Assembly (NCBI RefSeq): GCF_014863545.1
Contig: NZ_CP062260.1
Span: forward strand, 4,163,001 to 4,227,000
Origin: Paenibacillus sp. JNUCC32
GTDB taxonomy: Bacteria > Bacillota > Bacilli > Paenibacillales > Paenibacillaceae
Direction of reading: 5' to 3'
Length of the DNA stretch: 64,000 bases
Below are positions 16,072 to 28,742 of this stretch, one piece after another (the stretch's first letter is position 1; every line of letters begins with the position of its first letter). The position numbers were made by a program, and so were the translations under genes. The notes beneath the pieces are model-generated. The model saw nothing but the letters and a program-made list of their open reading frames with translations. It searched no databases and had not been told where the DNA came from.

Positions 16072-16944
16072 TCAAAGTCGCTTTCTTTTCTTGGACTTGC
16101 TGCCGGCGCCCTTGCGAAGCTTCGGCCAGCGATTCGCCGGCACATGCTGGAGCATCGTATGAAAAACGGTCCCCCACTGCTCTTCGTTCAGCCGACCGAT
16201 GGGGAGCTCTCGGTCCACTCTAAGCACTTTAACGAGCTTCGCCATCTGGGGAGGTGTAAACACGCCGGATAGAGCCGCAAATAACGGCAGCCGGGCATCC
16301 CGCAGCCCATAGGCGGCCAGCGCCGTAAACTTGGGCTGATGCGATGCGGCAATGAGCGGCTTCTTCCTCCGATGAATGGTCAGAATGGCTGAATCCACTT
16401 GGGGAGGCGGCGCAAAATGACGGGGCGAAACGGTCCGCACGAGCCGAATGTCGTACTGCATCCTCCAGCTGAGAATTCGCGGATCTTGAATGGGAACGGC
16501 CGTAAAACGTTTGGCTGCCCCCATCTCCACAAGCAGTACGGCCCGCTGCAGAGGGAGGCCGGGGCACTCCAAAAGCTTCCCCATGATCGGCGTGGTGATC
16601 GAATACGGAATATTGGCCACGACGGCAAATGGATTTCTCGGCAGCGGAATTTCCAGAAAATCCGACTGCTTGACGCGAATGTTGCTGCTATCCTTCATCT
16701 TGCCCAGCAGTTTATCCACAAATGCCGGATCAGCCTCGATTGCGAGCACGCGTGCCGCTTTCTCTGCAAGCGGAAAGGTTAACGCCCCTGTACCCGCGCC
16801 GATATCAAGAACGGTATCGGTGGAGCGAATCCGGGCCAAGTCGATCATATCATGAATCAGCCTTTTGCTGATTAATAGATGCTGCGCGGAAAAGTTGGAC
16901 GGTTTCTTCAGCTTTTCACGATGGGTTTTATGATATTTGGACAC
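16072..16944 (-). CDS. erm: Erm-type 23S rRNA adenine-N6-methyltransferase
   Basis: 290 residues. Erm proteins methylate A2058 of 23S rRNA and give resistance to macrolides, lincosamides and streptogramin B. Visible motifs are NFSAQHLL near the N-terminus, the SAM-binding VLDIGAGTG, ..AIEADP.., QSDFLEI and the catalytic NIPYSITTPI (motif IV), then a C-terminal helical domain with Lys/Arg-rich tail (GAGSKSKKRKR). The tail and sequence resemble the ErmD group of Bacillus. The GTG at 16944 follows GAGGTG by seven bases. The leader upstream has a 10-codon ORF and pairs with the ribosome site, so expression is probably inducible. It looks resident (same composition as its neighbours). Confidence 0.92.
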   Translation of the reverse strand: MSKYHKTHREKLKKPSNFSAQHLLISKRLIHDMIDLARIRSTDTVLDIGAGTGALTFPLAEKAARVLAIEADPAFVDKLLGKMKDSSNIRVKQSDFLEIPLPRNPFAVVANIPYSITTPIMGKLLECPGLPLQRAVLLVEMGAAKRFTAVPIQDPRILSWRMQYDIRLVRTVSPRHFAPPPQVDSAILTIHRRKKPLIAASHQPKFTALAAYGLRDARLPLFAALSGVFTPPQMAKLVKVLRVDRELPIGRLNEEQWGTVFHTMLQHVPANRWPKLRKGAGSKSKKRKRL

Positions 16945-16951
16945 AAAAAAG

Positions 16952-17137
16952 CACCTCATTCATTCGTATAGTAATGAAAAAGGCACAGCACAAATAATCC
17001 TTCGCATTTTTACATGAAAATGGATGGATGTAGATGTTCTGTACCCTCATTAACGAATACGTATGAATGCGATGCAGCACATGTCAGGACAATCCTCCCT
17101 TAGATGAAACGGATAAAATAACAATGACAGTATAACA
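16952..17137 (-). promoter_or_regulatory. Promoter and attenuator-like leader of erm
   Basis: An extended -10 (TGTTATACT, 17137-17129) leads into a ~185-nt leader. It carries a 10-codon ORF (17050-17082) with AGGGAGG upstream. The leader segment at 17048-17068 can pair with 16958-16976, just before the erm ribosome site (16952-16957), in three blocks of 6, 5 and 5 bp. A competing 7-bp pairing exists between TCGCATT inside the leader ORF and AATGCGA further down. This is the layout of translational attenuators of inducible erm genes. The fold is inferred by eye. Confidence 0.65.
17050..17082 (-). CDS. Erm leader peptide (MCCIAFIRIR)
   Basis: A 10-codon ORF with AAGGGAGGA upstream (10-11 bases to the ATG), lying between the promoter and the erm gene. 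The peptide ends Arg-Ile-Arg, a +x+ motif; macrolide-bound ribosomes are known to stall at such motifs, as in the ErmDL leader, which contains Arg-Leu-Arg. Here stalling would have Ile9 in the P site and Arg10 entering, directly before the stop. The role as an inducer sensor is an inference. Confidence 0.7.
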   Translation of the reverse strand: MCCIAFIRIR

Positions 17138-28448: not shown

Positions 28449-28504
28449 GATCAAATAAGCCTGCGCCAAAATGGAATATTCGCATTCACGGCAAACTCAT
28501 CTTT

Positions 28505-28665
28505 GATCTTCTCCCATCCGGACTTTACCGTCGGCCTTGGAATTGCACCAAGTCAGTCGCTGCATTCATGTTGGATACAGAACGCAGAGAGTCGCGGGCT
28601 TGGGTTCGTTCGCGAAGGAACGAACCATCACCGCCGGTCAGGAATTTCACCTTACCCCGAAGATC
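28505..28665 (-). promoter_or_regulatory. FMN riboswitch (RFN element)
   Basis: The minus strand carries all conserved parts of the FMN aptamer in order: GGATCTTCGGGG, GGTGAAATTCC, GACCGGCGGT, AGCCCGCGA, the CTTGGTGCAATTCC loop, GGCCGACGGT and AGTCCGGATGGGAGAAGAT. Ends pair (GATCTTC with GAAGATC). It controls the EamA transporter that follows. No rib biosynthesis gene is near. Confidence 0.96.
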
Positions 28666-28742
28666 CATATTCATGTTTTATTTTGTAATGCCTTAATCAC
28701 TAATTAACCGATAATTCCTATAAACTTAGTTGTTATATTGAA

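Follow-up and report, generated by a model that had tools for sequence, protein, structure and literature searches.

The window analysed here, a stretch of 64,000 nucleotides from the chromosome of Paenibacillus sp. JNUCC32 (genome size 7.0 Mb), carries on its minus strand a chromosomal erm gene whose GTG start lies at 16944. The encoded protein scores 224.9 bits against a cut-off of 212 with the NCBIfam model NF000499.2 (Erm23S_rRNA_broad) and is also matched by Pfam RrnaAD; among the best 25 of 35 families, no named erm class reached its own cut-off. Erm relatives are encoded in 570 plasmid records, every one of them less than 60% identical to the JNUCC32 protein, and thus the plasmid collection searched contains no close plasmid copy. 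LlmA of Paenibacillus sp. LC231 is an RlmK-like enzyme and was for that reason discarded as a candidate for the same gene. Upstream of erm lie a short leader open reading frame (ORF) and several RNA elements, listed below with the basis of each assignment.

16072..16944, minus strand: erm, 23S rRNA (adenine-2058-N6)-methyltransferase family, 290 aa, GTG start (NCBIfam NF000499.2, Pfam RrnaAD)
16951..16969, minus strand: erm ribosome-site arm with Shine-Dalgarno (SD) sequence GAGGTG at 16957-16952 (fold, alignment, pair counts)
16977..16988, minus strand: terminator-like hairpin, 3' arm CTGTGCC and T tract TTTTT (fold, alignment)
16992..16997, minus strand: TTATTT, candidate NusG pause motif TTNTTT (conserved; definition from PMC12288461)
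17039..17046, minus strand: terminator-like hairpin, 5' arm GGGTACAG (fold, alignment; helix 3 paired in 95.3% of cells in the erm and tlrB alignment)
17050..17082, minus strand: leader ORF MCCIAFIRIR followed by a stop (sequence; kept in relatives)
17053..17061, minus strand: predicted R-I-R (R-X-R) stall motif, with Ile9 (17058-17056) in the P site and Arg10 in the A site (motif from papers; spacing)
17057..17075, minus strand: anti-ribosome-site arm inside the leader ORF, codons 3-9, pairing with 16951-16969 (fold, pair counts)
17094..17100, minus strand: leader SD AGGGAGG (sequence)
17129..17137, minus strand: predicted extended -10 element TGTTATACT (sequence; TGnTAnAnT in 23 of 27 distinct leaders; without a -35 match)

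Rfam gave no match at the leader position at the gathering threshold. Elsewhere in the window, an FMN riboswitch was identified at 28502-28668 on the minus strand (RF00050, 110 bits).

The leader peptide and its conservation

An earlier note on this DNA had described a ten-codon leader ORF with a ribosome site, an extended -10 element upstream of it, and an Arg-Ile-Arg end next to the stop. The ORF is confirmed at 17082-17050, its SD (17100-17094) being placed at a slightly long spacing of 11 nt from the ATG. The start codon (17082-17080) is followed by TGC TGC ATC GCA TTC ATA CGT ATT CGT and TAA (17052-17050), the latter adjoined by a second in-frame stop, TGA, at 17049-17047 (tandem stops TAA-TGA). 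Arg8-Ile9-Arg10 thus stands directly before the stop, as described, and R-X-R is kept in relatives. The extended -10 element is present at 17137-17129, and TGnTAnAnT occurs upstream of 23 of the 27 distinct leaders, that of JNUCC32 among them, versus 4.3% of mononucleotide shuffles; a sigma-70 scan found no -35/-10 pair.

The note had also known of no published leader with this peptide, in agreement with our survey, in which the exact sequence was absent from the literature searched and only the five-letter string FIRIR was matched, in papers unrelated by title. The literature searched on erm leaders, Paenibacillus erm and ermK attenuation, which covered few of the subscription papers, likewise gave no account of such a leader. 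The antibiogram of P. lautus ATCC 43898 has been described as very similar to that of the multidrug-resistant LC231 (PMC5155152, available part); the word erm does not occur in the main text of that source as available, and therefore no phenotype can be tied from it to the JNUCC32 gene.

Erm relatives were found in 24 of 100 genomes of the genus (E <=1e-40) and in 64 of 394 genomes of the family (E <=1e-50). Conservation of the leader among relatives, proposed in the note as a test, was observed: MCCIAFIRIR is unchanged where Erm identity is only 71-86% (L002, L031-L034), and also at 50% (L060). It is identical in Paenibacillus sp. EZ-K15 (L048, Erm 86%) and P. lautus NBRC 15380 (L049, 83%), and reads MYCIAFIRIR in Paenibacillus sp. 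GM2 (L050, 76%). Other forms include MCNISFIRIR, MCGISFMRIR, MCCCIAFFRLR, MHMHGIAFIRLRK, MITHYMRLR and a 23-residue form ending in FTRLRK. The erm leader alignment comprised 26 of the 28 leaders with R-X-R before the stop, L055 and L061 being omitted for their closeness to L053 and L091. In a tree of 72 Erm proteins, with leader types assigned by eye from ORF lists, the 29 proteins with an R-X-R-stop leader fall on one side of a single branch (99% of 200 bootstrap trees; branch support 89/69), 33 have a longer leader of the ErmD type and 10 are unlabelled. The long ErmDL-like leaders thus mark other Erm proteins, on the opposite side of that branch.

Pairing of the leader RNA and its candidate pause motif

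The predicted fold of the leader RNA is one long hairpin (-58.6 kcal/mol versus a shuffle mean of -38.75; z -5.06; none of 200 shuffles as low). Its outer helices join leader GCATC to erm GGTGC, which belongs to the SD, then CATTCAT to ATGAATG and CGTAT to ATACG; in the inner helices AATGA of the stops pairs with TCATT, and the stem carries on with GGGTACAG (17046-17039) against CTGTGCC-T (16988-16981), after which the T tract follows. From this order of pairing, the leader codons would lock the erm ribosome site, with a terminator-like helix within. The pairing that had been proposed between 17048-17068 and 16958-16976 is real, but its extent was understated: 17075-17057 pairs with 16969-16951, with single mismatches and with GAGGTG inside the paired region. 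A simple terminator scan did not find the terminator-like hairpin, whose loop is large. Both this hairpin and its run of five T are conserved.

Across the 26 aligned erm leaders, this drug-free (OFF) structure has 89.2% of its cells paired, versus 31-51% with slid partners, in a comparison that favours it because the structure was taken from L001. Six pairs show changes in both partners (mean in shuffles 3.0, with 6 of 500 as high), and the covariation score is 0.121 versus 0.106 in shuffles (2 of 500). A second leader-like frame, with TTG at 16993 and reading LCCAFFITIR..., was considered as a repeat of the leader and rejected, L005 having LICTFFILSYTNE there; it was treated as a constraint on the RNA.

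Of 147 distinct modules of this kind, 137 carry TTNTTT at 8-10 nt ahead of the terminator 3' arm (N being A in 126, G in 7 and C in 4), a count in which the motif was not demanded by the pattern, yet most sites had been found by a model whose training rows contain it. The 10 modules without it differ mostly at the first T. According to the available part of PMC12288461, NusG residues 81-82 (N, T) are the positions named for the motif, and the motif by itself is insufficient for pausing; in JNUCC32 NusG, N-T aligns to residues 81-82 of the closest solved chain, as counted on the alignment. When the transcript was cut at the predicted pause, the leader start was no more accessible than in the full RNA (higher in 10 of 25 leaders), and the idea that a shorter paused transcript frees it is unsupported by folding.

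Likeness to tlrB and the predicted effect of a stalled ribosome

The closest parallel to this arrangement is tlrB (yxjB) of Bacillus subtilis. As described in the available part of PMC6851288, its leader MIIQFIRYR ends in tandem stops and gives a tylosin-dependent toeprint with Tyr in the P site, 15-16 nt downstream; experiments there also established that the terminator depends on NusA, that a hairpin sequesters the SD and that induction needs a NusG pause, and tylosin, not erythromycin, is the inducer. Both systems have a short leader ending in R-X-R with tandem stops, and the erm leader has a predicted SD-sequestering hairpin, a candidate terminator and, at the apex, a candidate NusG pause hairpin; sequence counterparts of stalling at R-X-R, terminator, ribosome-site sequestration and NusG pausing are all present in it. 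They differ in the gene, here an erm of the A2058 family rather than rlmA-II (G748), and in the peptide, MCCIAFIRIR rather than MIIQFIRYR.

The comparison was made with Paenibacillus tlrB leaders in place of the B. subtilis sequence. Homologues of tlrB (PF21302) occur in 16 of 40 genomes, and among 17 loci, 12 have an R-X-R-stop leader with similar RNA (MIIQFIRYR, MIHFIRLR, MIIKFIRLR, MIYYIRLR), while none was found at L098, L100, L108 and L109. A further tlrB, L104, has the long ErmD-type leader MVHYIRLRFPALNL, which indicates that a second type of attenuator likewise precedes both erm and tlrB. In JNUCC32, tlrB lies about 120 kb from erm and has the leader MIHFIRLR. Paenibacillus tlrB leaders align with erm leaders, and a single covariance model trained on the two sets together recognises either; in JNUCC32 this model scores 121 bits at erm and 96.7 bits at tlrB, both being training members. 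In the joint alignment of 32 leaders (21 of the 26 from erm, and 11 of the 12 from tlrB), the OFF structure has 89.8% of cells paired versus 31-54% with slid partners, and double-change cells number 24 versus 10.7 in shuffles (0 of 500 as high), while the pairs with any double change, five, are not above shuffles (3.8; 131 of 500). The clearest covariation, column 16/129 (A-T in 13 rows, T-A in 12), tracks the first base of the X codon. RNAalifold, unaided, recovered from this alignment the terminator helix alone, with 8 pairs.

ErmDL, the ermD leader with RLR invoked in the note, remains a parallel for the type of arrest motif, +X+ upstream of an erm, but as nearest relative it was rejected in view of PMC6851288 (available part) and of the tlrB leaders of the same build in these genomes. 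It continues past RLR, whereas MCCIAFIRIR stops after a C-terminal R-I-R and has no codons of the FPTLN type (PMC8298421, available part). The same part of that paper reports that ketolides stall predominantly at +X+ and that erythromycin arrest at ErmDL is independent of RLR. The B. subtilis vmlR leader shares the sequence of the NusG motif (UUAUUU) and shows the attenuation of both transcription and translation by an antibiotic-stalled ribosome that is proposed here, but there the stall is at initiation of an upstream ORF, the gene encodes an ABC-F protein and the RNA is another (PMC9226507, available part).

The distance from the X codon to the terminator arm is conserved. It is 13-15 nt to GGTACAG in 23 distinct erm rows (31 rows, 27 distinct); the pattern gave 19 nt for L059, L061 and L091, of which L059 and L091 align at 14 and L061 has the same stretch, L054 had no pattern match, and L056, which failed the SD pattern, was added afterwards. 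In 164 distinct modules, each a locus, the distance from X to the GG of the arm is 14 nt in 143, 13 in 19, 12 in L216 and 15 in L037, with the search starting at 10 nt so that shorter distances could not appear. Four leaders have a C-terminal extension of one or two codons, K or QM (L003, L037, L053 and L055, the last two near-copies); in these the spacing from X holds at 14-15 nt and the stop shifts to 0-2 nt, which identifies R-X-R, and not the stop, as the anchor. The final residue is Arg in 158 of the 164 modules, with all six Arg codons used, Trp in 5 and Lys in 1; since collection was by a pattern requiring R-X-R/K/W and a T-rich stretch, these counts cannot tell how often the motif is lost. 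Leaders ending in R-I-W or R-L-W, with the RNA module still matched, occur before erm (L006, with RIW; L249, the same site as L248; L258; L261) and before mef-like genes (L224, L246, L262); recurring before different genes, such endings may mark another drug specificity rather than decay.

That the ORF is fortuitous, with the conserved RNA a plain palindromic terminator or structure and the peptide a by-product of pairing, deserves hardly any credence. Most leader codons lie in the paired arm, and RNA constraint alone would keep many of them; but the leaders range between 8 and 23 aa in length with R-X-R and the stop at constant positions, and Arg is kept through both CGN and AGR codons, in a collection where the motif was required.

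Folding with and without a stalled ribosome, suggested in the note, was carried out on 25 erm leaders with the ribosome at successive positions. The mean probability of the terminator arm stays at 0.99 up to the position with the P site two codons before X, and then falls to 0.91 one codon before X, 0.41 at X and 0.00 one codon later. The GG:CC base by the T tract is present at 1.00 when the first free nucleotide is +13, 0.30 at +15 and 0.02 at +16; the whole arm is still at 0.74 at +15 and 0.56 at +16. Since the tlrB toeprints lie at 15-16 nt (PMC6851288, available part), R-X-R sits where a stalled ribosome would just break the terminator base. Downstream of it, CTGTGCC-TTTTTCATT is predicted to refold with AATGAATGAGGTG. 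In this local hairpin, at about 16986-16951 (minus strand), the erm ribosome site is taken up by the 3' arm of the terminator together with the T tract, which would be a second lock on the SD.

Release of the erm SD was seen only in part. With masked bases left in the fold, the SD was not released (stalled value higher in 7 of 25); with only the RNA downstream of the ribosome folded, its mean unpaired probability was 0.08 stalled versus 0.16 OFF (higher in 4 of 25), and the cost of opening it fell only from 11.8 kcal/mol to 7.6-9.3 (n=25). Paenibacillus tlrB leaders (15 of 17 tried) behaved alike, with 9.6 kcal/mol OFF and 5.9-7.5 stalled, and therefore partial release may be a limit of static folding. 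Release of the SD by an R-X-R stall is thus weakly predicted, and the remaining helix would compete with the local SD hairpin, the weak point of the mechanism.

These values bear on a classical translational attenuator like ErmC, in which a stall at earlier codons lets GGTACAG pair with CTGTGCC, the local SD hairpin opens and no real terminator exists. Attenuators of the ErmCL/ErmBL type combine a drug-stalled leader with an SD-sequestering hairpin; their arrest motifs are other than the one found here, and we know of no terminator or pause motif in them. For a ribosome placed 2 to 8 codons upstream of X, the SD can be opened for only 3.5-4.4 kcal/mol and has an unpaired probability of 0.36-0.55 (means of 25), and the predicted local SD hairpin resembles those of classical erm leaders. 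At those positions, however, the GGTACAG:CTGTGCC helix forms (0.99) beside five T and should therefore terminate transcription, and the conserved anchor is R-X-R at the leader end. Moreover, at five mef-like sites carrying the module (L218, L219, L224, L237, L244) the gene starts after a further SD beyond it, so that transcription attenuation alone could act there. We consider this alternative improbable.

Arrest at termination, with Arg10 in the P site at the stop codon, would resemble TnaC, a release-inhibiting leader. The stop does follow R-X-R directly in most leaders, and here a second in-frame stop follows; the leaders with extra codons nevertheless keep the spacing from X to the arm and not that from the stop, and both tlrB (PMC6851288) and ErmDL (PMC8298421) arrest, in the available parts of these papers, with the last Arg in the A site. 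Such an arrest is very unlikely.

We regard it as likely that the erm leader is a macrolide-responsive dual attenuator of the tlrB type. Computation gives its parts, their pairing, the kept spacing and the likeness to tlrB leaders, and we infer stalling, pausing, termination and induction at this leader. In the absence of drug, ribosomes would complete the ten codons and depart, and the RNA would form the long hairpin, whose inner part (GGGTACAG:CTGTGCC-TTTTT) would stop most transcripts early and whose outer part, formed by leader codons 3-9 with the erm ribosome site, would block translation of those read through. RNA polymerase would pause at TTATTT with NusG, so that the leader could be translated while the hairpin is still incomplete. 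A drug bound in the exit tunnel would halt the ribosome when Ile9 occupies the P site and Arg10 the A site. The front edge of this ribosome would cover the terminator base and the anti-ribosome-site arm would be hidden, so that, as we propose, transcription would go on and erm could be made. Leader and RNA switch together would probably turn resistance on only upon a drug-stalled ribosome. The earlier reading appears right in outline, with partial support, and had missed the terminator-like hairpin with its T tract, the TTNTTT motif and the kinship with tlrB.

The module before other macrolide-resistance genes

At E <=0.001, the covariance model matched 143 of 388 genomes of the family, 142 of 392 of the order and 58 of 398 of the class, in sets that overlap, with some sites being training rows and with search filters that lose weak matches. 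Matches on the opposite strand are mirror echoes of palindromic sites and were excluded as loci, as were L225-L227 and L248, which repeat classified sites. Downstream genes, compared with the Erm and TlrB of JNUCC32 and later with references found on the way, were classified at 160 loci among the matches listed: erm 31, tlrB 108, mef-like 10, esterase 9, mph-like 1 and unclassified 1, distributed over four batches.

First batch, 111 loci: erm 17, tlrB 88, mef-like 4, esterase 2
Second batch, 20 loci: tlrB 8, esterase 6, mef-like 5, unclassified 1 (L231)
Third batch, 20 loci: erm 11, tlrB 6, mef-like 1, esterase 1, mph-like 1
Fourth batch, 9 loci: erm 3, tlrB 6

Individual assignments include L143 (erm), L166 (mef-like) and L176 (tlrB). 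The L201 product is a macrolide esterase (NF052610.1, 459.2 versus 420) that matches PDB chains named EstT. The L218 efflux protein has Mef(B) as best match (321 bits, under the exception cut-off of 800) and the L265 kinase has MphM (314 bits, under 610), and they are accordingly named mef-like and mph-like. L265, with the leader MGIQFIRIR, is the sole mph-like macrolide phosphotransferase behind the module.

Some loci combine features of different families. At L166, with the leader MITHFMRLR, the start region reads as in the L046 erm, yet a mef-like gene follows about 250 nt downstream; the gene behind the leader has possibly been swapped. At L272 the leader MGIHAGIHFIRIR is of the erm type but the 375-aa frame behind it matches TlrB, and the locus possibly represents a tlrB that has come under the control of an erm leader; an Erm match there, short and weak (blastp 6e-06), did not recur at 1e-8. 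L231, a model match of 58.8 bits, precedes an unidentified 351-aa frame and shows no leader ORF that can be recognised; it has the look of a decayed module.

No report of the module being shared between gene families was found in the literature searched on tlrB, erm and NusG and on esterase and mef attenuation. On balance we favour a single portable RNA cassette, made of the R-X-R-stop attenuator, pause motif, terminator and ribosome-site lock, which across Bacilli would have come to stand before macrolide-resistance genes of no fewer than five unrelated families (erm, tlrB, mef-like efflux, macrolide esterase and mph-like kinase), giving a macrolide response wired only in cis; the erm among these would be the first Erm under NusG-dependent pausing. 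For one Erm clade, sharing with tlrB looks more likely.

The type of mechanism is already known; new with respect to the literature searched are an erm of the tlrB type, the tie among five gene families and the exact peptide. In the available part of the 2022 paper on vmlR, that gene is presented as the second known case after tlrB in which NusG is essential for an inducible resistance gene, and a search for further TTNTTT motifs is proposed (PMC9226507). The module supplies erm, mef-like, esterase and mph-like candidates together with a ready set of natural variants, and makes testable how far the last leader residues (RIR, RLR, RYR, RIW) set the macrolide that is sensed, and whether a single attenuator has been passed naturally from gene to gene.
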